Assembly: GCA_015065335.1 (NCBI GenBank)
Contig: SVQM01000012.1
Location: 1-33,007, forward strand
Direction of reading: 5' to 3'
From: Oscillospiraceae bacterium
GTDB taxonomy: Bacteria; Bacillota; Clostridia; Oscillospirales; CAG-272
Length of the DNA: 33,007 nt
Of the stretch, positions 10,185 to 27,127 are shown piece by piece (positions within the stretch are counted from its first letter, which is position 1; the number at the start of each line of letters is the position of its first letter). The notes beneath the pieces are model-generated. The model had not been told where the DNA came from and made no database searches. It saw only the letters and a program-made list of their open reading frames with translations. Position numbers and translations under genes: made by a program.

Positions 10185-10202
10185 AACATGGAGATAAGGC
10201 TG

Positions 10203-11810
10203 ATGAAACATCGGATACCAAAAATTCTTTTAACATTTTTATCGGGAATGCTGACGGCACTTCCGATAATGTATCCGAAGCTTTTCGTCATCGGCATTAT
10301 CTCCTTTGCAATTCCCGCATTTATTGAATATACGGCTGAGGGAAAAGCATGCAGACTCAGGAGCGCATATCTTCGCGGCCTTGCGTTTTTTATGGGGTTC
10401 GGTTTAATAGTGTTCTCATGGTTTACAGCCATGTATCCCCTTGAATTTACGGGACTTTCTAAGGTAGCGGCTGTAGGTGTTGTATGCGCAGGCTCTCTCG
10501 GTCTCTCTCTTTTGCAGGCACTGTTCTGGGGACTGATGTTTCTTGTGTCAAGGCTTTTTGATAAGCTGTTCTGTACAGGGAAAAATCCTCTTGTGTACTC
10601 ACTTGTGTTCTCCTGCCTTTATGTGGTCTTTGAGTGGATGAGTACAAAAACATGGGCGGCTGTACCTTGGGGAAGGCTCGCTGTAGGACAAAGCGAGTTT
10701 TTGCCAATGGTGCAGATCGCATCCGTTACAGGTTCATACGGTGTCAGCTTTATTCTTGTGCTTGTCGGATGTACGCTCGGTGTCTGCTGTTCGGAATACA
10801 GAAAGCACAGATCAAAGCTCACACTGCGTCCTCTCATTCCGGTGGCTGTCGTCCTTGTATTAAATATAGTATTCGGTTGCGTGCGTCTTATGACATATGA
10901 GGTGTCCGAAGAAAGCACAAAGGTGACTGTTGCAGCAATACAGGGCAATGTTTCTTCCCATGACAAGTGGACATCTGATACCTTTGAAGAGACAAAAGAG
11001 AATTATACAAAGCTTACTCATGCAGCGGTGGCGGAGGGTGCAGATATCGTGATCTTTCCGGAAACTCCCGTGAATTATAACCTGCAGGGAAGCTCGGGTT
11101 ATTATGTTAAAAGCTTTTATGAATCACTGGCGGCTGATGCGGATTGCATTATCGTCACCGGTGCCTTTACAAAAAATGATGATGGGATCAGTGAGAACTC
11201 TATCGTCGTCTTTGATCCCGATGATGGACAAACTGAAGATAAATACGTAAAGAGGCATCTTGTTCCGTTCGGGGAATACGTGCCGCTTCGTGACTTTGTA
11301 TCTTTCGTATTTCCGCCGCTTTCAAGCATAACTATGCTTGAATCAGACCTTGCTCCCGGAACGTCTCCCACTGTTTTTGAAACAAAATACGGCAAAATAG
11401 CCCCCCTAATATGCTTTGATTCGATTTACGAAACTCTTGCGATCGACAGCATACGTGCAGGCGGCGAGCTTCTCACTGTATCTACAAATGACTCGTGGTT
11501 CCTTGACTCATCCGGTGTATGGGAGCATAACCGTCATGCTGTGCTCAGAAGCATCGAATGCGGAAGATACACCGTCAGATCGGCAAACACAGGTGTATCC
11601 TCCATTATCTCTCCTACCGGTGAGATAATGGATATTCTTCCACCTCTTGAGGATGGGTATATTGTGTCGGATGTCTATATGATCGAAGAGAATACGGTAT
11701 ATGTTACTATCGGAAATGTATTTGTTATTTTATGCTTTGCAGGACTTGTACCGCTTGTTTTATATAGTCATTTCATGAAGAAAAAGCAGGAGACTGAAAA
11801 TGACCGTTGA
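10203..11810 (+). CDS. lnt: Apolipoprotein N-acyltransferase-like protein
   Basis: Multiple N-terminal TM helices, then a nitrilase-type domain: VTVAAIQGNVSSHDKW, IVIFPETPVNYN (Glu), KRHLVPFGEYVPLRDF (Lys), APLICFDSIYE (Cys), VSTNDSWFLDSSGVWEHNRHAVLRSIECGRYTVRSANTGVSSII. ATG at 10203 preferred over 10188 because GGAGATAAGG precedes it. Confidence 0.9.
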   Translation: MKHRIPKILLTFLSGMLTALPIMYPKLFVIGIISFAIPAFIEYTAEGKACRLRSAYLRGLAFFMGFGLIVFSWFTAMYPLEFTGLSKVAAVGVVCAGSLGLSLLQALFWGLMFLVSRLFDKLFCTGKNPLVYSLVFSCLYVVFEWMSTKTWAAVPWGRLAVGQSEFLPMVQIASVTGSYGVSFILVLVGCTLGVCCSEYRKHRSKLTLRPLIPVAVVLVLNIVFGCVRLMTYEVSEESTKVTVAAIQGNVSSHDKWTSDTFEETKENYTKLTHAAVAEGADIVIFPETPVNYNLQGSSGYYVKSFYESLAADADCIIVTGAFTKNDDGISENSIVVFDPDDGQTEDKYVKRHLVPFGEYVPLRDFVSFVFPPLSSITMLESDLAPGTSPTVFETKYGKIAPLICFDSIYETLAIDSIRAGGELLTVSTNDSWFLDSSGVWEHNRHAVLRSIECGRYTVRSANTGVSSIISPTGEIMDILPPLEDGYIVSDVYMIEENTVYVTIGNVFVILCFAGLVPLVLYSHFMKKKQETENDR

Positions 11811-17421: not shown

Positions 17422-17450
17422 AGCCGTGCTTTTGGAGTGCGGCTTTTTTT
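17422..17450 (+). terminator. Terminator-like hairpin upstream of sigma cassette 1
   Basis: AGCCGTGCT-tttgg-AGTGCGGCT (two G-U pairs) followed by T7. Confidence 0.7.
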
Positions 17451-17474
17451 ATGAAAAAATTTTTCCCTGATTTA

Positions 17475-17504
17475 TGCAATCGTGGATATTTTCAAGTTAT
17501 ATAA
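17475..17504 (+). promoter_or_regulatory. Putative promoter of sigma cassette 1 (TGCAAT...GTTATATAA)
   Basis: TGCAAT at 17475 and GTTATATAA at 17496 (21-nt offset), 28 nt before the ATG. The same layout occurs upstream of cassettes 2 and 3. Confidence 0.45.
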
Positions 17505-17523
17505 GTGAAGGCGAGGTGAGACA

Positions 17524-18063
17524 ATGGAGAAAAAAACGGACGTTATGGATCTTGACCGATGTATAAGCAAGATAGCACATGATGATCCTTTTGCCCTTGA
17601 GGAGCTTTATAGAGAATTTTGTGATCCGATATATCGATTTGCTTTAATGAATGTGCGTGATCAAAGTGTTGCAGAGGATATAATGCAGACTACATTTCTC
17701 AGAATAATGGCAGGAGCAGGTACATATAAGCTCGGTACAAATGCAAGAGCATGGATCTTTTCCATTGCGAGAAATGCATGCAAGGACCACCACAAACGAA
17801 AGATCCCTATTGCAGAGGATTTCGATCCGGCATATGCGGCAGACGAGAGCTCCATTGATGATCTTACCGATTCGATCGCAGTGAAGGAGGTCGTGGAAAA
17901 GCTCTCCTATCTGGAAAAAGAAATATTGTCATTGTACATCTTCGGTGGTCTGAAACAAACAGAGATCGCAAAAATTCTCGGAATATCTTACATCAAGGTG
18001 CGTTCTAAGTATGGCTATGTACTAAAAAAACTCAGAAAGGAGCTTCAAGGATATGAAAAATAA
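17524..18063 (+). CDS. ECF-like RNA polymerase sigma factor (sigma-70 family), cassette 1
   Basis: Region 2: ALEELYREFCDPIYRFALMNVRDQSVAEDIMQTTFLRIM...ARAWIFSIARNACKD. Region 4: LSYLEKEILSLYIFGGLKQTEIAKILGISYIKVRSKYGYVLKKLRKEL. Confidence 0.92.
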   Translation: MEKKTDVMDLDRCISKIAHDDPFALEELYREFCDPIYRFALMNVRDQSVAEDIMQTTFLRIMAGAGTYKLGTNARAWIFSIARNACKDHHKRKIPIAEDFDPAYAADESSIDDLTDSIAVKEVVEKLSYLEKEILSLYIFGGLKQTEIAKILGISYIKVRSKYGYVLKKLRKELQGYEK

Positions 18064-19738
18064 AGAAGTTATTGAGATCATACGGGAAAGTTATTCTGAG
18101 AGGTCTCCCGATGTGCTTCAAAATTTAAGATTCGACAGCATTGAAAAAACCAAGACAAAGGAAATCCCCGTCAGAAGAAGGTATATTGCGGTTGCGGCAG
18201 TTTATATTGCGGCATGTATAGTTATCGTTTGCATATTGCCATTTATAACATCGATGAAAAAAGACTCCGGCATTACTCCGTCGGGAGATGTTGGTTCAAT
18301 ATCGTCGGATACAAATACCGTCCCTGAAACTACGGAGCAGGAAGCTGATGTAGTCCCACCGAAAAAGGATCACGATTTCGGCGGTGCCGAATTTAAAATA
18401 CTTCATGTTGGTAAAGAGAAGCAGTACGATTACTGGAAAACAAATGTGGCTGATATGTATGCACGTGACATATATCTTATACCGGACGAGCGTGAAGGTG
18501 AGATGATCAGCAGTGCCGTAAGTAAGAGGAATAATACAGTTGAAGAGGAATATAACGTGCGTTTTGTGTCTGAGACTGTGGAGGATCTGTCTAAGGAAAC
18601 TCTTGCGAGGATGCAGGCGGGACAGTGCGATTTCAATGTAATTCTTGATGAGGGAGTAGCATCAAAATGGTATGTGACAGGGCTTAAAGGTTATCTCTAT
18701 GATCTTCGTGAAATGGAGAACATAGATCTGACACAAAGCTACTGGATGCCAAAAGCATCCGAAAGTCTCACCGTGGCAGGCAGACAATTCTTCAGCGGCG
18801 GAATGGTAACCATGGATGCCGTTGGACACGCAGAGATCCTTTATTATAATAATGATCTCATGAGTGAGCTTGGATATGGGGACAAAACTCCTGCCGATAT
18901 GGTAGAGATGGGTTCATGGACCTATGAGCGTATGCTTGAAATGGTAGTGGCTGCGGGAAAGGATCTTAACGGAGACGGACGTATTACTGTAGATGACAGA
19001 TGGAACGGACTTTATGAGCAGTATCTTAAAGGTATCATAATAAACTCATCCACAGCTCTCAGGGATATCGGTAACGGTGAATATGAGCTTGTACCGTACA
19101 CATCAAAAACTCTTGATGCGTATAATAGGTATGCGAATACTATTGAGTCCGCTTATCGTAAGGATGGTAATATAAATCTTCCGGTACACGGTACATATGA
19201 TGTGTGGTATGAGGATTATTTCCTAAGAGCACCGTTTGAGAAGGGCAATACTCTGTTTATGCTCGGCAGCATCGATTATGCCCGAGAACTGAGCGGTGTG
19301 AAGGGCGGCTACAGTATCGTTCCCGTTCCCGTTCTTGAGGAGGGCGATGAATATGTGGCGAGAGGCGATGCCAATTCCAATATGCTGTCAGTACCGATAG
19401 ATATGGCAGATCCGTACATGACCGGTGCAGTTCTTGAATATATGGCAATCCTCTCGGAGAGGATGCTCTATCCTGCATATATTAATGAAACTCTCGGAAC
19501 AAATGTCGCTGATAATGATAATAATTATAAAATGGCTGATGTAATCAAAAACAGTGTAAGATATGACTGGGCAGAGCTTTATAATTGGGGAAGTCAGTAC
19601 AGTAGCTACGGAGAATATGAAAACATGAGGATGCGTCTTTTTGATTCCGGTCTTCATCCGGAATATGAGCTCGATGAGGAAAAAGTTATGCGTCCGATAA
19701 ATACGGTGGTCGAAAGACTTGAAAAAGTCGGCAAGTGA
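18053..19738 (+). CDS. Single-pass membrane protein, putative anti-sigma/sensor with extracellular solute-binding-protein-like domain, cassette 1
   Basis: Basic stretch then TM (RRRYIAVAAVYIAACIVIVCILPFI). Extracellular part resembles family-1 extracellular solute-binding proteins: FGGAEFKILHV, QAGQCDFNVILDEG, YYNNDLMSELGYGD, GSWTYERMLEMV, DLNGDGRITVDDRWNGL. Overlaps the sigma gene by 11 bp. Confidence 0.8.
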   Translation: MKNKEVIEIIRESYSERSPDVLQNLRFDSIEKTKTKEIPVRRRYIAVAAVYIAACIVIVCILPFITSMKKDSGITPSGDVGSISSDTNTVPETTEQEADVVPPKKDHDFGGAEFKILHVGKEKQYDYWKTNVADMYARDIYLIPDEREGEMISSAVSKRNNTVEEEYNVRFVSETVEDLSKETLARMQAGQCDFNVILDEGVASKWYVTGLKGYLYDLREMENIDLTQSYWMPKASESLTVAGRQFFSGGMVTMDAVGHAEILYYNNDLMSELGYGDKTPADMVEMGSWTYERMLEMVVAAGKDLNGDGRITVDDRWNGLYEQYLKGIIINSSTALRDIGNGEYELVPYTSKTLDAYNRYANTIESAYRKDGNINLPVHGTYDVWYEDYFLRAPFEKGNTLFMLGSIDYARELSGVKGGYSIVPVPVLEEGDEYVARGDANSNMLSVPIDMADPYMTGAVLEYMAILSERMLYPAYINETLGTNVADNDNNYKMADVIKNSVRYDWAELYNWGSQYSSYGEYENMRMRLFDSGLHPEYELDEEKVMRPINTVVERLEKVGK

Positions 19739-19757
19739 TCCTTTGTAATATAAAAAT

Positions 19758-19797
19758 AAACGGTATCGGAGAATTGTCCTTCGGTACCGTTTATTTT
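19758..19797 (+). terminator. Terminator after cassette 1
   Basis: AAACGGTATCG...CGGTACCGTTT (one G-U pair) followed by ATTTTT. Confidence 0.75.
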
Positions 19798-19854
19798 TGC
19801 GAGCAGTACCTATTCAAAAAAATAAAAAAATATGATAAAATATTATAAAGCTAT

Positions 19855-19884
19855 CGCATTTGTATATTTTTGGCGGTTATATAA
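19855..19884 (+). promoter_or_regulatory. Putative promoter of sigma cassette 2 (CGCATT...GTTATATAA)
   Basis: CGCATT at 19855 and GTTATATAA at 19876 (21-nt offset), 27 nt before the ATG. Confidence 0.45.
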
Positions 19885-19902
19885 ACAGAGGGAGGTGATA
19901 GA

Positions 19903-20433
19903 ATGAGCAAATATGAATCTACCATAGACCTTGACCGTTGTATCAGTAAGATATCAAGGCGTGACCATACCGCAGTTGAGGAGCTTTACAGAGAGTTCTC
20001 GGGTGCCGTTTATAAGTATGCCCTTGTTATATTGCGGGATACGGGACTTGCCGAGGATGCCATGCAGAATACGTTTCTGAGGATAATGGCAAGTGCAGGT
20101 ACATATAAGCTCGGTACAAATCCTCGGGCGTGGATATTCAAAATAACGAGAAATGTTTGTATGGACATCCATAACAGCAAGATCCCGTCGGCAGATGACG
20201 TTGAGCCTGAGATATTGTCAGACGACCATTCCATAAATGATGTGTCTGAAGCTATTGCCGTCAGAGAGGCCGTTTCAAGACTTACAGATCGTGAGAGGGA
20301 GGTTTTATCCTTGTACCTTTTCGGTGGACTTAAGCAGACCGAGATCGCAAAGATAATGGGACTGTCATATGTGAGAGTGCGCTCCATTTATGAATGTGCC
20401 ATAAAAAAACTGAGAAAGGAGTTTTGTGAGTGA
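19903..20433 (+). CDS. ECF-like RNA polymerase sigma factor, cassette 2
   Basis: AVEELYREFSGAVYKYALVILRDTGLAEDAMQNTFLRIMASAGTYKLGTNPRAWIFKITRNVCMD...LTDREREVLSLYLFGGLKQTEIAKIMGLSYVRVRS. Clear paralog of cassette 1 sigma. RBS GGGAGGTGA. Confidence 0.92.
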   Translation: MSKYESTIDLDRCISKISRRDHTAVEELYREFSGAVYKYALVILRDTGLAEDAMQNTFLRIMASAGTYKLGTNPRAWIFKITRNVCMDIHNSKIPSADDVEPEILSDDHSINDVSEAIAVREAVSRLTDREREVLSLYLFGGLKQTEIAKIMGLSYVRVRSIYECAIKKLRKEFCE

Positions 20434-20434
20434 G

Positions 20435-22831
20435 ATGAACAAGAAAGAAATTTTGGAAAAAGTACTTCGCGGATATGACGTCAAGGTGCCGAACGTTTTG
20501 CCGAATCTGAGTTTTTCTGAGATAGAGGAGACACCTATGAAAAAAGAATCGCTTAAAAAGAAATACATAATTGCCGCCGCAGTATATGCTGCCGCTTGTC
20601 TCGTGATCTTAGCCACGATCCCGTTTATCATAAATACACTCAAAACTCCCGATAAAGATGATCCCATAATACCGGGTGCGGATGAGACGTTTGCGGATAA
20701 GGATTTCGACGGTGAGGAGTTTGTGATACTCGGTGATCATTGGAGCCTTATAAACAATAGCTTTGAGGTGAATAACTCGGAGGATACAGACCCCGGTATT
20801 CTTGACAGAGCAGTAATCAAGGGATTTGAAGATGCCGAGCGCAAATATAACATACAGATAAAAGCAAAGACTGTTGCTGATCCTGCTATGGAGGCTGTGA
20901 TGAGCTATCAGTGCGGTCAGAAGGATCACAGTGCCTTGTGTGACAACGGCTATGAGCTTGGTGAGGCGGCACTTGAAGGGTACCTTTGCGATATCTCTCA
21001 TTTAAGTGAGATCGATCTTACCAAAAGTTATTGGCTTCCTCATACCGTGGATGATCTTACTGTTTCGGGAAAGCTTTATTTCCTTGGCGGTAAGCTGTCG
21101 ATGGCTCCCATAGAGGATGCGGATTTCCTGTATTATAATATGGATATAGTGAAATCCATGGGTAAGAAAGACATCTTTGAGATGGCAAAAGCGGGTGAGT
21201 GGACTTACGATGTGTTTATGGAGTATGTCATTTCATCGGAGAAGGATCTTGACGGTAACGGCGAGATGAGTACTGGTGATCGCTACAGCGGACTCACTGA
21301 TGATGATGCAAAAAGCATGCTTTATGATATTCATGTTGCGGATAACGGCGACGGTACGTATGAATTTATTCCTTATACAGAAGGAAGTATAGCTTTGTAC
21401 TATAAGTATAAGAATGACATAAACGGAATAAATTATGATCTGTATGACAGCAGTAAGGGCCCTTATGCAATAAGTCCCTATGAGAATAAGATCCATCTGT
21501 TCGGGGACGGAAGGTCTCTTTTCCTTCTGAACGGAGACACGATGGATATGGGTGATGATCCCTTCATAATGGATGACAATGTGGGTATTGTGCCTTATCC
21601 AAAGAAATTCGAAACGGCAGAATACACATCTACGGTGCGTCTCGGTTCTCATCTCATGGCGATACCTCTGAATTGTAATAATATCGAAATGACGGCTACA
21701 GTACTTGAGTATCTTGCTGCATCATCTGAGAGAGAGCTTTATCCTGCGTACTACGGGCAGTATACAGATACCGAGGATGAAGAGATAAACAAAAAACGCA
21801 CAGAGATGCTTGACATGATCCTTGATACTGTATCCTACGATTGGACGGATATATATCTGGCAGAATCAGAATTGCATGCGATTGAAGACAGATTTTATGC
21901 ATCCGGAAGCTTTGCAAGTGTTGTAAAGAGATACTTTGCCAAAATACAGGATGATATAGACTTTGTTGCTGATAAGATAAGATCTTTGCCTGTAAGCGAA
22001 TACAGTACCGATGAGGAGGCTGTAATATTCGGAACGAAGCCACTCGTTATGCCGTTCTCGGGAAATATGTCCAAATCTGACATCGGTAGAAAGACTGAGA
22101 TCGTATACGACTATCTGTACGGACTTACAAGTGATGATAAGATATACACCACACCTGAGCTTACAGCGGTGCTTGAGGGCGATCCCACAAGGCTTCTTGC
22201 CGTTACCTTCATGGCATTTTCATCGGATGGAAAGGATATTGTTGATGCGGATGCTCTGAGAGAAGCACTTGCAGGAGATAAAGATCATCCTGTTCCCGAA
22301 TTTGCAAGGTCTGAGGATTACAGTAATGCCGTAAGCGGACTTGAAACCGTGATCTATATGACAGGTGAGGATTTCAGAAATCTCACCCCTCCCGAGGGAA
22401 TGAGAGTCGTAGCGGGACTTGTTGATTTTCCTGATGAGGGTGGAGCACTCAGTTATATTTCAACACAGATCTCAAATGATGAAGAGGTAATTGTATATTA
22501 CACTTACGATCACTTTGATAAAGATACCTCTGACACTGCAGATACCCCCGAAGATAAGTGGGAGGCGTTTGAGCTGAGCGTAAAGCAGTATTACGATGAT
22601 TCTTACCTTGAGGAGTGCAAAAAAGTACGAGAGGACGGAACTTTGGCGGAGAAGCTGAAGAAATATGTAATGGCTCATCATGATGGAGCAAATTATAAGC
22701 TACCCATAGAAGATTTCATGATCGTACCGGAGCTTTGCCGTGTCCAGATGAGGGTAAATAAAGAGATGTTTATCAGAATGCAGGACAATAAATATATTAC
22801 GGCAAGAATAGTAAAGGAAGAAGATAAATAG
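20435..22831 (+). CDS. Single-pass membrane protein, putative anti-sigma/sensor with SBP-like domain plus extra C-terminal domain, cassette 2
   Basis: ATG at 20435 or GTG at 20426. LKKKYIIAAAVYAAACLVILATIPFII is the shared TM motif. SBP-like: DFDGEEFVIL, FLYYNMDIVKSMGKKDIFEMAKAGEWTYDVFMEYV, DLDGNGEMSTGDRYSGL. Confidence 0.78.
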   Translation: MNKKEILEKVLRGYDVKVPNVLPNLSFSEIEETPMKKESLKKKYIIAAAVYAAACLVILATIPFIINTLKTPDKDDPIIPGADETFADKDFDGEEFVILGDHWSLINNSFEVNNSEDTDPGILDRAVIKGFEDAERKYNIQIKAKTVADPAMEAVMSYQCGQKDHSALCDNGYELGEAALEGYLCDISHLSEIDLTKSYWLPHTVDDLTVSGKLYFLGGKLSMAPIEDADFLYYNMDIVKSMGKKDIFEMAKAGEWTYDVFMEYVISSEKDLDGNGEMSTGDRYSGLTDDDAKSMLYDIHVADNGDGTYEFIPYTEGSIALYYKYKNDINGINYDLYDSSKGPYAISPYENKIHLFGDGRSLFLLNGDTMDMGDDPFIMDDNVGIVPYPKKFETAEYTSTVRLGSHLMAIPLNCNNIEMTATVLEYLAASSERELYPAYYGQYTDTEDEEINKKRTEMLDMILDTVSYDWTDIYLAESELHAIEDRFYASGSFASVVKRYFAKIQDDIDFVADKIRSLPVSEYSTDEEAVIFGTKPLVMPFSGNMSKSDIGRKTEIVYDYLYGLTSDDKIYTTPELTAVLEGDPTRLLAVTFMAFSSDGKDIVDADALREALAGDKDHPVPEFARSEDYSNAVSGLETVIYMTGEDFRNLTPPEGMRVVAGLVDFPDEGGALSYISTQISNDEEVIVYYTYDHFDKDTSDTADTPEDKWEAFELSVKQYYDDSYLEECKKVREDGTLAEKLKKYVMAHHDGANYKLPIEDFMIVPELCRVQMRVNKEMFIRMQDNKYITARIVKEEDK

Positions 22832-22832
22832 C

Positions 22833-22863
22833 AAAAAGGGGCAGCTCTAAAGCTGCCCTTTTT
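22833..22863 (+). terminator. Terminator after cassette 2
   Basis: AAAAAGGGGCAGCT-ctaa-AGCTGCCCTTTTT. Confidence 0.85.
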
Positions 22864-22892
22864 ATAAAATTAAAATTTTTTCAAAAATATTC

Positions 22893-22922
22893 CGCAAAAG
22901 GCTCCTCTATACAGTATAATAA
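22893..22922 (+). promoter_or_regulatory. Putative promoter of sigma cassette 3 (CGCAAA...GTATAATAA)
   Basis: CGCAAA at 22893 and GTATAATAA at 22914 (21-nt offset), 27 nt before the ATG. Confidence 0.5.
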
Positions 22923-22940
22923 GTAGATGGAGGTGATAAC

Positions 22941-23480
22941 ATGAAAGACAATCCGAAAGAATTTGACTTTAACACCTGTCTGCAGAGGATCTCCGTAAAG
23001 GATACAGATGCACTTGAGACTCTTTATCGTGAGATGAAGGATCCTGTGTACAGATACGCACTGACGCTTCTTCAGGACCATGGACTTGCCGAGGATGCCA
23101 TGCAGATCACTTTTCTTAAAATAATGGCAAATGCCGATACATATCGCTCGGGAATGACGGGAAAGGCGTGGATAATGGCTATCGTACGGAATACCTGCCA
23201 TGACCTGAGACAGAAGAGAACTCCCGTTGCTGAGGACGATGTCATAAACAGTGTAAAAGATGAAAATGTGATAGATGCGCTTACGGATGTGATCGCAGTA
23301 AGAGAAGCGTTCCGCAAGCTCTCACCGGAGGAGAGGGAGATAATGTCCCTTTATATATTCTCCGGGCTGAGACAGACCGAGATCGCACAGGTAATGAAGA
23401 TTCCGTATATAAAGGTGCGTTCAAAGTATGGTTATGCGGTAAAAAAACTCAGAAAGGAGCTTGGTCAAGATGAAAAATGA
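22941..23480 (+). CDS. ECF-like RNA polymerase sigma factor, cassette 3
   Basis: ALETLYREMKDPVYRYALTLLQDHGLAEDAMQITFLKIMANADTYRSGMTGKAWIMAIVRNTCHDLRQK...LSPEEREIMSLYIFSGLRQTEIAQVMKIPYIKVRSKYGYAVKKLRKEL. RBS GGAGGTGA. Confidence 0.92.
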   Translation: MKDNPKEFDFNTCLQRISVKDTDALETLYREMKDPVYRYALTLLQDHGLAEDAMQITFLKIMANADTYRSGMTGKAWIMAIVRNTCHDLRQKRTPVAEDDVINSVKDENVIDALTDVIAVREAFRKLSPEEREIMSLYIFSGLRQTEIAQVMKIPYIKVRSKYGYAVKKLRKELGQDEK

Positions 23481-25989
23481 TGCTATGTTTAATATGATAA
23501 AAGGAAGCTGTACTGCCACAGCTCCCGAGATACTCTCAAAGCTAAGCTTTGATGCAGCAGCGGAGTACAAAGATACGGTTGCCGCACCGTCACCGAAAAA
23601 GAGCTATATAAAAGCCGCAGTCGTGTATGCCGCCGCCTGCCTTGTGATCGCCGTAGCGATCCCGTTTATAATAGGTAACGTGAGCGACAAGGAGCCGTCT
23701 GTTCCATCATCTTCCGTGGCGGAAAAGAGTATAAATGCCGAGGATATAAACGAGATTTATAACAAGGTCGATCCCGATACTCTGCCTCAGGAGGTCACAG
23801 TGGAGGAGGTCGAGAAGATAATCGAGGCGGCTCGCCGTGCTTACGATGATTACAATGTGGTAATCCTCTCCGGCGGAACAAAGATCACAACCACTCCGAA
23901 GAAACCCGATATTACCGAGGATGATCTTGAGGGGATGTTTTACGGTGATGAAAGGATTTTGGAATATAAAGAATATTTTGATAATATGAATCTCATTATA
24001 TACGACGCAATATCGGCGAGATTTAGTGAAAATTCAACGTGTATCATTGAACCCATGGATTATACAAGTCCCCCTTATGCGAGCTTTTGGGTACTTGATC
24101 TTGAAGCTACTGCTTTCACGGATTCTGAAATAATAGAGCACCTGATGTTTGAGAACGGTAACGAGAATATCAGATACTTCTGCGATATCATCGCATACGG
24201 ATTAGGAAATGGAGAAAAGTATTATTTCGCTCACTATACGGAAACCTTAGGTGAAGAGACCATGCTTTTCCCCACAAAGGAAGAATATGCGATACTTACG
24301 GCTGAACTTCCGGAAGCTTCCGTTGATTACAAGCTGGCGATCGAGGATGAGATCCTTGCGGCTGAGAGCGTGAGATCAAAGGAGGATCTCATAAAGCGTG
24401 GATATGATGATATGACCGAACAGTACGGAACAAAGTCTGTCATGGATGCATTTCGCTGTGAGACCGGTGCTGCACTCATGTATGTGTACTATGATAGAGG
24501 ATATAAGCATCCGAATCATATTTATGTGAATCCCATCAGCACTCCTGTAGGTTTTGCTGATGTAAAAAGAGTTGAGATAGAGATCTGGACTGGGTTTGTT
24601 CTCATAAGTATAGAGCTTAATGTAGAGATAAACGATCCCATAGTACTTCCTCCATCAATAGAAAAGGAACTGAGGTATATACTGAATATGCCGTATAAGC
24701 TTGCGATCGAGGATGAGCTTCTCGGAGCTGAAAGCTCAAAAACCAAAGATGAGCTTATAGATTACGGATATGAGGAGGTTACCCACGGAGGCGATACGTT
24801 CCTGCTACGGGAATTCGAGTGTGAAACCGGAACAGCACATTTCAGAATATTTAATAGGGAGCTGCATATAACCGCACATCCTTATGTGGATGCATTTGAT
24901 GCTCATATTCCCGATCTTGAAGACGGGAAGATATACCTTACTGCGGACATATGGACCGGGAACTGCTTTATTAAAATGCGTGTAATCGTCGATGATGCTT
25001 TTCCCATAGTCCTCCCCGAAGCCGTTGAAGCGGAGCTTAGGTATATCCTGAATATCGAAAAAGAGGATCATATCACGGATCCCCCCGTAGAAGGTATTAT
25101 TGCAGACGATATCAGGTATCTTGATTCCGATGTTGGATATAAGTTTGCAATCATTGAGCGTGACGGAAAGTTTGGTCTTATAAATACCGACGGTGAGATC
25201 ATTCTTCCCGTGGAGTATAAATCTATAGATCTGAATTTTCTTGCGCCTAATGATATGAGAATGAAATTGCAGGCTGTAATTTCGAGTGAAACAAAATATG
25301 AAATATACTGGATAGAGAACGACGGAACCCTGACAGAAGTCCCTTTATACGGATTTGGTGCAGAAGGTGGAATCGAAATATATTGGATGAACGGAAAACC
25401 TCTGATGCTTGATTTTTTCGAGGGTGAGATAGAGTACTCCGTTGATAGATATACCTCTGATATGGTATATAAATTCTCGTATGCGGTAGCATCAGGTAAA
25501 CAGTCGGATGTGATCCCGATACGTGAGATAAACAGTTACATAAGTGATAATGGGTGGTACTATGTCCGGGAGGAGAATCTTGTATCACATAAATATGCTT
25601 TGTACAACTTCAGGACAAAGGAACTTATCACCGATTTTATATTTGATGATTGTGGGTATGATGATCGTAGGAATCAAGGATTTGTAGAGGGTATCCTCGC
25701 CGTAAAGAAAGACGGAAAATGGGGTTATGTCAACGAGTCCGGTGAGATGATAACTGATTTCATTTACGATGCATCCGAAACAAAAGAAATAAACGGTAAT
25801 ATTGTAGAGACAATGTACTACACACTCAATGGATATACCATAGTCAGACAGGGAGATCTTTTCGGACTTATTTATAAGAACGGAGAGCTTGTGCTTGATG
25901 TAATGTACGAGGATATATCCAATGTAAATCCCGACGGATATGTGTGGGTGAAAACTAATGGCAGATGGACTGTGATTAAAATATCATAA
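23470..25989 (+). CDS. Single-pass membrane protein, putative anti-sigma/sensor with tandem 122-aa repeats and WG-repeat domain, cassette 3
   Basis: KKSYIKAAVVYAAACLVIAVAIPFIIG shared TM motif. Two tandem 'YKLAIEDE(I/L)L.AES....(D/E)LI..GY...ELRYILN' units. C-terminal WG-like repeats: RDGKFGLINTDGEIILPVEY, KDGKWGYVNESGEMITDFIYD, QGDLFGLIYKNGELVLDVMYEDI. ATG at 23470 preferred over TTG 23461 (RBS AGAAAGGAG). Confidence 0.78.
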   Translation: MKNDAMFNMIKGSCTATAPEILSKLSFDAAAEYKDTVAAPSPKKSYIKAAVVYAAACLVIAVAIPFIIGNVSDKEPSVPSSSVAEKSINAEDINEIYNKVDPDTLPQEVTVEEVEKIIEAARRAYDDYNVVILSGGTKITTTPKKPDITEDDLEGMFYGDERILEYKEYFDNMNLIIYDAISARFSENSTCIIEPMDYTSPPYASFWVLDLEATAFTDSEIIEHLMFENGNENIRYFCDIIAYGLGNGEKYYFAHYTETLGEETMLFPTKEEYAILTAELPEASVDYKLAIEDEILAAESVRSKEDLIKRGYDDMTEQYGTKSVMDAFRCETGAALMYVYYDRGYKHPNHIYVNPISTPVGFADVKRVEIEIWTGFVLISIELNVEINDPIVLPPSIEKELRYILNMPYKLAIEDELLGAESSKTKDELIDYGYEEVTHGGDTFLLREFECETGTAHFRIFNRELHITAHPYVDAFDAHIPDLEDGKIYLTADIWTGNCFIKMRVIVDDAFPIVLPEAVEAELRYILNIEKEDHITDPPVEGIIADDIRYLDSDVGYKFAIIERDGKFGLINTDGEIILPVEYKSIDLNFLAPNDMRMKLQAVISSETKYEIYWIENDGTLTEVPLYGFGAEGGIEIYWMNGKPLMLDFFEGEIEYSVDRYTSDMVYKFSYAVASGKQSDVIPIREINSYISDNGWYYVREENLVSHKYALYNFRTKELITDFIFDDCGYDDRRNQGFVEGILAVKKDGKWGYVNESGEMITDFIYDASETKEINGNIVETMYYTLNGYTIVRQGDLFGLIYKNGELVLDVMYEDISNVNPDGYVWVKTNGRWTVIKIS
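24325..25056 (+). repeat. Tandem in-frame repeat of two 366-bp (122-codon) units at 24325-24690 and 24691-25056
   Basis: Translated units start DYKLAIEDEILAAES / PYKLAIEDELLGAES and end ELRYILNM / ELRYILNI. Confidence 0.8.
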
Positions 25990-26001
25990 TAAGCAATACA
26001 G

Positions 26002-26035
26002 AAAACGCCACCTTTGCGTAAAGGTGACGTTTTCT
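26002..26035. terminator. Bidirectional terminator-like hairpin between convergent genes
   Basis: AAAACGCCACCTTT-gcgt-AAAGGTGACGTTTT, one mismatch. Confidence 0.75.
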
Positions 26036-27127
26036 CTATTCAGTTACATATAGTGTCAGATCCCATTCGGGGATGCACATAGGACGCCTGAGATAATACT
26101 TTCCGTTGGGGTAGAATTTGCGGATGTACAGGGGAAGCTCAAATATATCTCCCGTTCTGTGATAAAGCGATACGGAGAGGGCAGGGTGTCGCTTCAGCGT
26201 TTCGGTTGCACTGTAAAGTGCCGCCATCTCAAAGCCTTCCGTATCAAGCTTCAAAAAATCTATTTTTCCGTCAAGATGTTCTCTTACTATGTCATCAATG
26301 GAAATGGCAGTGGTGTGTATCTCCTTAGCTCTTTTCGGACTTCCCGGAATTGCCGCATCGGGAGCAGAGCCACGGCTGCCCGACGATACGAATACTCTCT
26401 CTCCCGAACACTCGTCAAGCATGGCACAAAGGGGAATTATCTTAGAGTCACCATGTGATTCAGCCATAATGGAGAGCTTTTTGTGACTTCGAGGATCGGG
26501 TTCGACCGCAACAAGTCCGTCAAGGTTCGGGAATACGTCACAGAAGAGCTCTGCGGTGTCTCCTTTGAACGCTCCTCCATCGATGGCACTGTGGATGCTC
26601 CCTGTATCAAAAACGCTCCTGAGCGATTCTGAGGGGCTTTCCGTGCGCATGAGGAATTTCATTTTCCCCGTGAGCCTGTGAGCGACCATTTCATCGAACA
26701 GTAGGAGAGATTCTTCATCTGCGAGAATGGAGCGAACCTCATGGAGCTTAGCACGGTGTTTTGTATAATATTCATCTGTGAAAAGCTCACTTATCAGATC
26801 ATCGCAGAATAAAGGGACTTCCGGTATATACAGCTCATGACGCTCATCAAGGAGACGGAGGAAATCAATCACATCGGGAAGAGTGGTGCCGAATGCGGCG
26901 AGGATGATCATATCATCACCAAACTCCTCACGCACACTGCTGTATGAACGAACGGGGAAATCACGGAATGTACGTGATCTTACAAATCCGTCGCTGGCAA
27001 AAATGCCGCTTATCTTTACACCAATATGACCGAGAATGTCAATGATCTTATCGGCACCGTTTCCCGTACCGTATATGAAAACAGGCTTGTTCTTATCTGA
27101 AAGCGTATACCAAAAACTTTTATACAT
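26036..27127 (-). CDS. FkbM family methyltransferase with N-terminal Rossmann-like extension
   Basis: SAIDGGAFKGDTAELFCDVFPNLDGLVAVEPDPRSHKKL, TTAISIDDIVREHLDGKIDFLKLDTEGFEMAALYSATETLKRHPALSVSLYHRTGD. N-terminal PVFIYGTGNGADKIIDIL. Confidence 0.87.
   Translation of the reverse strand: MYKSFWYTLSDKNKPVFIYGTGNGADKIIDILGHIGVKISGIFASDGFVRSRTFRDFPVRSYSSVREEFGDDMIILAAFGTTLPDVIDFLRLLDERHELYIPEVPLFCDDLISELFTDEYYTKHRAKLHEVRSILADEESLLLFDEMVAHRLTGKMKFLMRTESPSESLRSVFDTGSIHSAIDGGAFKGDTAELFCDVFPNLDGLVAVEPDPRSHKKLSIMAESHGDSKIIPLCAMLDECSGERVFVSSGSRGSAPDAAIPGSPKRAKEIHTTAISIDDIVREHLDGKIDFLKLDTEGFEMAALYSATETLKRHPALSVSLYHRTGDIFELPLYIRKFYPNGKYYLRRPMCIPEWDLTLYVTE

Follow-up and report, generated by a model that had tools for sequence, protein, structure and literature searches.

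Background

Operons that pair a sigma factor with a single-pass membrane anti-sigma factor have been amplified in Clostridium thermocellum, where the SigI/RsgI systems are autoregulated and combine a short cytoplasmic domain, one transmembrane segment (TM) with an XAA site, and swapped extracellular sensors (CBM3, CBM42, PA14, GH10 and others). SigI is a group V sigma70 factor in which the SigI C-terminal domain replaces region 4 (PMC6056542). RsgI carries an autocleaving periplasmic domain, RsgI_M; after RseP cleavage, ClpXP degrades the fragments ending at the XAA sites of the TM (PMC12203970). Here we describe three tandem gene pairs ("cassettes"), in each of which an extracytoplasmic function (ECF) sigma factor gene is followed by one for a membrane protein with a single TM, in a stretch of 33,007 nucleotides from an Oscillospiraceae bacterium (contig SVQM01000012.1 of assembly GCA_015065335.1; hereafter "the window"). 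The source genome comprises 2.16 Mb in 155 contigs and is 75% complete.

Other systems also bear comparison. Class I anti-sigma domains (ASDI) measure 101 +/- 33 aa and often carry an Hx3Cx2C motif, and about half of the membrane-bound class I anti-sigmas are without the zinc motif (PMC7406223). Class II anti-sigmas, of the CnrY type, place a cytoplasmic segment of at most about 50 aa ahead of a single TM and contact sigma2 and sigma4 through two helices. For RsiV/RsiW-type partners of ECF sigmas in Bacillus and Clostridioides, the model of release is regulated intramembrane proteolysis. Finally, ECF sigmas with RsgI_M (PF23750) partners occur in Clostridia and Bacilli, among them C6 of the present genome and many relatives.

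Results and discussion

We consider it probable that the pairs act as ECF sigma/anti-sigma switches that regulate their own expression, carry a lipoprotein-derived sensor and are released by proteolysis. The main new point is that each of the four known outside parts (three in the window and one in a further cassette, the fourth, which lies on contig C155) has, as judged from sequence comparison, a lipoprotein counterpart encoded in its own genome, because the solute-binding protein (SBP) domains are nested among this genome's SBPs and the two other ectodomains match lipoproteins on contigs C81, C115 and C141.

Ectodomains and their lipoprotein counterparts

The initial annotation had attributed a different extracellular domain to each membrane protein. 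This is correct only in part, since ectodomains 1 and 2 are homologous to each other (31% identity, E-value = 1.5e-59) and both of the SBP type. They are also homologous to lipoprotein SBPs of the same genome over nearly the whole SBP length, and a match to SBP_bac_8 is found in membrane protein 2 below the cut-off (E-value = 9e-5). In a phylogenetic tree of 36 SBPs, both are nested in a clade made up only of this genome's SBPs (support 100/100). Ectodomains 1 and 2 are thus best read, from homology and tree, as solute-binding-protein domains of the organism's own lipoprotein SBP family. The tree groups the two with each other, albeit weakly (93/66), so that one fusion followed by duplication is the simpler history; their independent capture is unsupported. 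The branches of the fused domains are long (1.43 and 1.74) compared with those of the standalone SBPs (0.09-0.69). The cassette proteins differ from the SBP lipoproteins in exhibiting a sigma-type tail and TM in place of the signal peptide and lipidation cysteine, and no permease genes were found at the cassette locus.

Standalone SBP genes of the same clade adjoin L-arabinose-isomerase-family genes on two contigs, and the profile of the SBP family weakly matches an arabino-oligosaccharide-binding protein in the PDB (E-value = 0.0054). On C93 (L143 1149-7891), three tandem SBP lipoprotein genes lie beside an L-arabinose-isomerase-family gene, with no ATP-binding cassette permease genes within the stretch. 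Another SBP of the clade, on C107 (L142 5644-7401), carries an N-terminal dockerin type I domain (E-value = 1.8e-12); such a dockerin-SBP fusion is unusual and would dock the binding protein onto a scaffold.

The N-terminal domain of ectodomain 3 (residues ~107-275) recurs in two small lipoproteins, encoded on contigs C81 and C115, and its C-terminus matches WG_beta_rep (E-value = 1e-16). Ectodomain 4 exhibits 30% identity over 198 residues (E-value = 1e-25) with a lipoprotein encoded on C141. For the last ~280 residues of membrane protein 2 (~515-798), no match was found in Pfam or in membrane proteins 1 and 3. An AlphaFold model of protein 1 from a two-row alignment reached a predicted local distance difference test score of 28 and a predicted template modelling score of 0.17, and we draw no structural claim from it.

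A conserved cytoplasmic tail and TM linked to sigma genes

Each membrane protein in the window exhibits one hydrophobic segment, within residues 47-68, preceded by a tail of ~45 aa (about 40-49 aa) with a consensus of about MKxKEIIxxIRxxYxxxxPDVLxxLSFD. The linkage that the initial annotation proposed to check was seen in both directions: in the own genome, each of the four full matches to the tail abuts a sigma gene, and a single-pass partner lies directly downstream in 90 of the 105 loci of related sigmas. Residues 1-26 of the tails are in register with the tails of RsgI_M-type and other related-sigma partners, P-D-V-L included (hhalign E-value = 9.4e-6, probability 83). No classical anti-sigma domain was detected in the window membrane proteins by Pfam or NCBIfam. 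Among 91 partner proteins scanned for domains, including those of the window, of the fourth cassette and of C6, we identified RsgI_M in 25, PepSY in 13, zf-HC2 in seven, dockerin in three and WG in two.

None of the three window proteins contains the HxxxCxxC zinc motif. Its absence, pointed out in the initial annotation, is real, but given its frequency among membrane-bound class I anti-sigmas (PMC7406223) it is not remarkable. The proteins differ from class I in any case, having a ~45-aa tail rather than a domain of ~100 aa. In the size of the cytoplasmic segment they agree with class II, from which their large sensor ectodomains set them apart. With the RsiV/RsiW type they share the ECF partner, and they possess neither its zinc-finger-type domain nor an RsiV or RsiW ectodomain.

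Sigma factors and extent of the family

The three small open reading frames (ORFs) of the window contain Sigma70 region 2 (E-values = 1.9e-12, 9.4e-12 and 2.8e-13) as well as region 4, above the Pfam cut-offs. With both regions, no region 3 and a length of ~180 aa, they are ECF sigmas. Sigmas 2 and 3 exhibit 59% and 53% identity to sigma 1, as expected of the paralogs they had been taken for. The sigma of the fourth cassette is likewise 59% identical to sigma 1 and is followed by a related tail and TM. These four cassettes (group A) form a single clade in the sigma tree, with the RsgI_M-type ECFs outside.

As far as searched, the amplification of the cassette family appears lineage-specific, since no full tail match turned up in any other of the 397 genomes searched within the same taxonomic family and the next-nearest sigmas are distant (E-values of 1e-36 to 1e-44 versus 1e-97). 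The genome encodes a second set of four sigma/membrane-protein pairs (group B), at C57 (L024 459-4060), C141 (L025 4415-7197), C132 (L026 600-2740) and C84 (L027 6100-8804). Their sigmas form a distinct clade, their ectodomains differ, and other genomes of the taxonomic family contain related tails that score lower. The group B TM signature, Y[AV]AAC, is very similar to that of group A, the core Y[AIV]AAC being present in all eight own-genome partners (four in each group). The TMs of the two groups are strongly alike (hhalign E-value = 1.7e-12), for the TM region only; as the likeness is confined to that region, we do not claim common descent of the whole partners. The three cassettes first recognized in the window are therefore part of a larger family.

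The initial annotation had interpreted the locus as an amplified family of sigma/anti-sigma modules with swapped sensors. The conserved tail and TM, the replaceable sensors and the linkage among relatives speak for this, and the promoter-like site described below speaks for autoregulation, but ectodomains 1 and 2 are of one type by descent, and a real swap concerns part of the family only.

A shared promoter-like element

The strict ungapped pattern GCAW-N16-GTTATATAA has exactly three matches in the 2.16 Mb, ahead of cassettes 1, 2 and 4 (the reversed control pattern has one). For a related, stricter pattern, the number expected in the window is 0. Cassette 3 is preceded not by a strict match but by the variant GCAA-N16-GTATAATAA, whose spacing and distance from the gene equal those in cassettes 1 and 2. 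Of the three outgroup sigmas nearest to the cassettes, two are likewise preceded by the element at the same spacing; one of these two belongs to a different family within the order. A common pattern is present in six of the seven upstream regions, compared with a mean of 0.55 expected; at least six were reached in none of 2000 shuffles. The cassettes are likely autoregulated through this promoter-like site, since the strict form occurs only at cassettes and variants with the same spacing are found at cassette 3 and at two of the three outgroups.

Upstream of RsgI_M-type relatives in the same family, TGCRATAA occurs at 13 of the 109 loci, compared with 0.8 in shuffled sequences. In L151, L152, L156, L158, L161, L163-L166, L170 and L175, a highly conserved TGCRATAA(AA) is followed ~11-13 nucleotides on by a GCATT-like element; this pair is probably the autoregulatory promoter of the RsgI_M-type ECF group.

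Proposed mechanism

In the proposed switch, the short cytoplasmic tail would bind and silence the co-translated sigma, and the ectodomain, taken from the cell's own secreted lipoproteins, would sense a ligand outside the cell; our best guess in the case of cassettes 1 and 2 is a sugar or an oligosaccharide. A signal at the ectodomain (ligand or damage) would lead to cleavage of the membrane protein and release of the sigma. A site-2 protease may cut near Y[AIV]AAC and expose an XAA-type end for ClpXP; an M50 protease of the site-2 type is encoded in the genome, and by analogy the present partners could use XAA sites and ClpXP as RsgI of C. thermocellum does. The freed sigma would then recognize and fire its own GCAA/GTTATATAA promoter.

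Several points weigh against this reading. Binding of the sigma, the ligand, proteolysis and promoter recognition are inferences, and, with the autocleaving RsgI_M absent, the model does not account for the first cleavage. The likeness of the tails to RsgI-type tails is modest in hmmsearch (E-value = 0.067 for protein 1, worse for the others), and AA-rich TM segments are common. The promoter-like pattern was spotted by eye in the cassettes before testing, the outgroups being its sole independent test. Nor was a distal regulon found: relaxed patterns gave 139 sites, with 139 in the control.

We give roughly even chances to a broader proposal, according to which the cassettes are lineage-specific receptors whose sensors were repeatedly captured from the cell's own lipoproteins (SBPs for pentose-type sugars, WG proteins and others), a transport-type binder having become a direct transcriptional receptor that lacks the RsgI autocleavage domain. 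This suggests a route to new nutrient or surface receptors, in which fusion of a constant sigma-binding tail and TM to an exposed lipoprotein part is followed by duplication of the whole. With their shared promoter site and standalone lipoprotein twins, the four cassettes lend themselves to tests of ligand specificity, of cross-talk and of the first cleavage without RsgI_M. A literature search missing most subscription papers returned no description of SBP or WG ectodomains on anti-sigmas, which does not prove precedence.

Alternative explanations

The proteins might simply be carbohydrate-sensing anti-sigmas of the usual RsgI type, no different from those of SigI/RsgI and the RsgI_M-type ECFs except in the choice of sensor. 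The layout of short tail, one TM with XAA (as defined in PMC12203970) and C-terminal sensor is indeed that of RsgI, many related ECF partners and the C6 partner contain RsgI_M, and a dockerin protein is encoded in the genome. The RsgI_M-type ECFs further share a related sigma, a tail with P-D-V-L, one TM and a -35-like TGCRAT/YGCAWW element upstream. The window sigmas, however, all have region 4 and not the SigI C-domain, RsgI_M is absent from the four group A partners, and the four sigmas form a clade apart from the RsgI_M-type ECFs with a different -10-like element. Sensors differ too, being SBP, WG and lipoprotein-type here. We therefore regard this explanation as unlikely. Among described systems, the RsgI_M-type anti-sigmas come closest, as does SigI/RsgI in terms of function. 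The cassettes would function like SigI/RsgI yet are not members, because their sigmas have region 4 and their partners are without RsgI_M; they are best called a variant of ECF/anti-sigma pairs. At C6 itself (L028 3554-7232), the ECF sigma gene is followed by a partner with RsgI_M and PepSY and then, directly, by a gene whose product seems on visual inspection to carry a dockerin.

The ectodomains could instead serve as surface baits (SBP, WG and lipoprotein mimics), the sigma being released when a toxin, enzyme or antimicrobial agent rather than a nutrient is bound, much as with RsiV, described as a lysozyme receptor (PMC5014341). They do resemble surface lipoproteins of the same cell. The long branches of the fused SBPs would suit a bait that has been freed from its transport role; a changed ligand or role would account for such fast evolution too, and the locus gives no indication of defence, which makes damage sensing improbable. 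That the membrane proteins are mere outputs, surface proteins co-expressed with an otherwise regulated sigma, agrees with the lack of a classical anti-sigma domain, but is very improbable in view of a tail and TM conserved despite unrelated ectodomains, of the partner linkage in relatives and of tails similar to those of RsgI-type partners.

Locus organization and neighbouring genes

The six ORFs of the autoregulated switches proposed above were all recovered on the same strand where they had been annotated (Table 1). In cassettes 1 and 3, the sigma and membrane-protein ORFs overlap by 11 nucleotides (ATGAAAAATRA), and in cassette 2 they are separated by one nucleotide. A terminator hairpin closes each pair, its folding being much more stable than that of shuffled sequence. 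The three pairs are translationally coupled and terminator-bounded, in agreement with the initial annotation.

Table 1. Coordinates of cassette features in the window
Feature	Position	Strand	Remarks
Promoter-like element, cassette 1	17476..17504	+	GCAA-N16-GTTATATAA; one of three strict genome matches
ECF sigma factor 1, 179 aa	17524..18063	+	Sigma70_r2 and r4; 59% identity with sigma 2
Membrane protein 1, 561 aa	18053..19738	+	Tail 1-46, TM 47-65, linker, SBP ectodomain ~91-561
Terminator, cassette 1	19752..19802	+	20-bp stem, -25.1 kcal/mol, z -6.7
Promoter-like element, cassette 2	19856..19884	+	GCAT-N16-GTTATATAA; one of three strict genome matches
ECF sigma factor 2, 176 aa	19903..20433	+	Sigma70_r2 and r4
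Membrane protein 2, 798 aa	20435..22831	+	Tail, TM 48-66, SBP ectodomain ~71-515, C-terminal ~280 aa
Terminator, cassette 2	22834..22866	+	z -4.8
Promoter-like element, cassette 3	22894..22922	+	GCAA-N16-GTATAATAA; -10 variant, two mismatches to strict pattern
ECF sigma factor 3, 179 aa	22941..23480	+	Sigma70_r2 and r4; 53% identity with sigma 1
Membrane protein 3, 839 aa	23470..25989	+	Tail, TM 50-68, lipoprotein-like domain ~107-275, middle segment, C-terminal WG repeats
Terminator, cassette 3	25993..26040	+ (also reads as minus-strand terminator)	z -5.6

Upstream of the three cassettes lie genes for EPSP-synthase/MurA-type, TrmK-type and pseudouridine-synthase proteins, which are chromosomal neighbours, and downstream lies an FkbM-type methyltransferase gene. 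No target operon of the sigmas is apparent among these neighbouring genes. The window also encodes an apolipoprotein N-acyltransferase (Lnt; LNT_N and CN_hydrolase domains) at positions 10188-11810. Lnt is not expected by default in spore-former-type Firmicutes. The genome encodes SpoIIP, and the source organism is apparently of this type.

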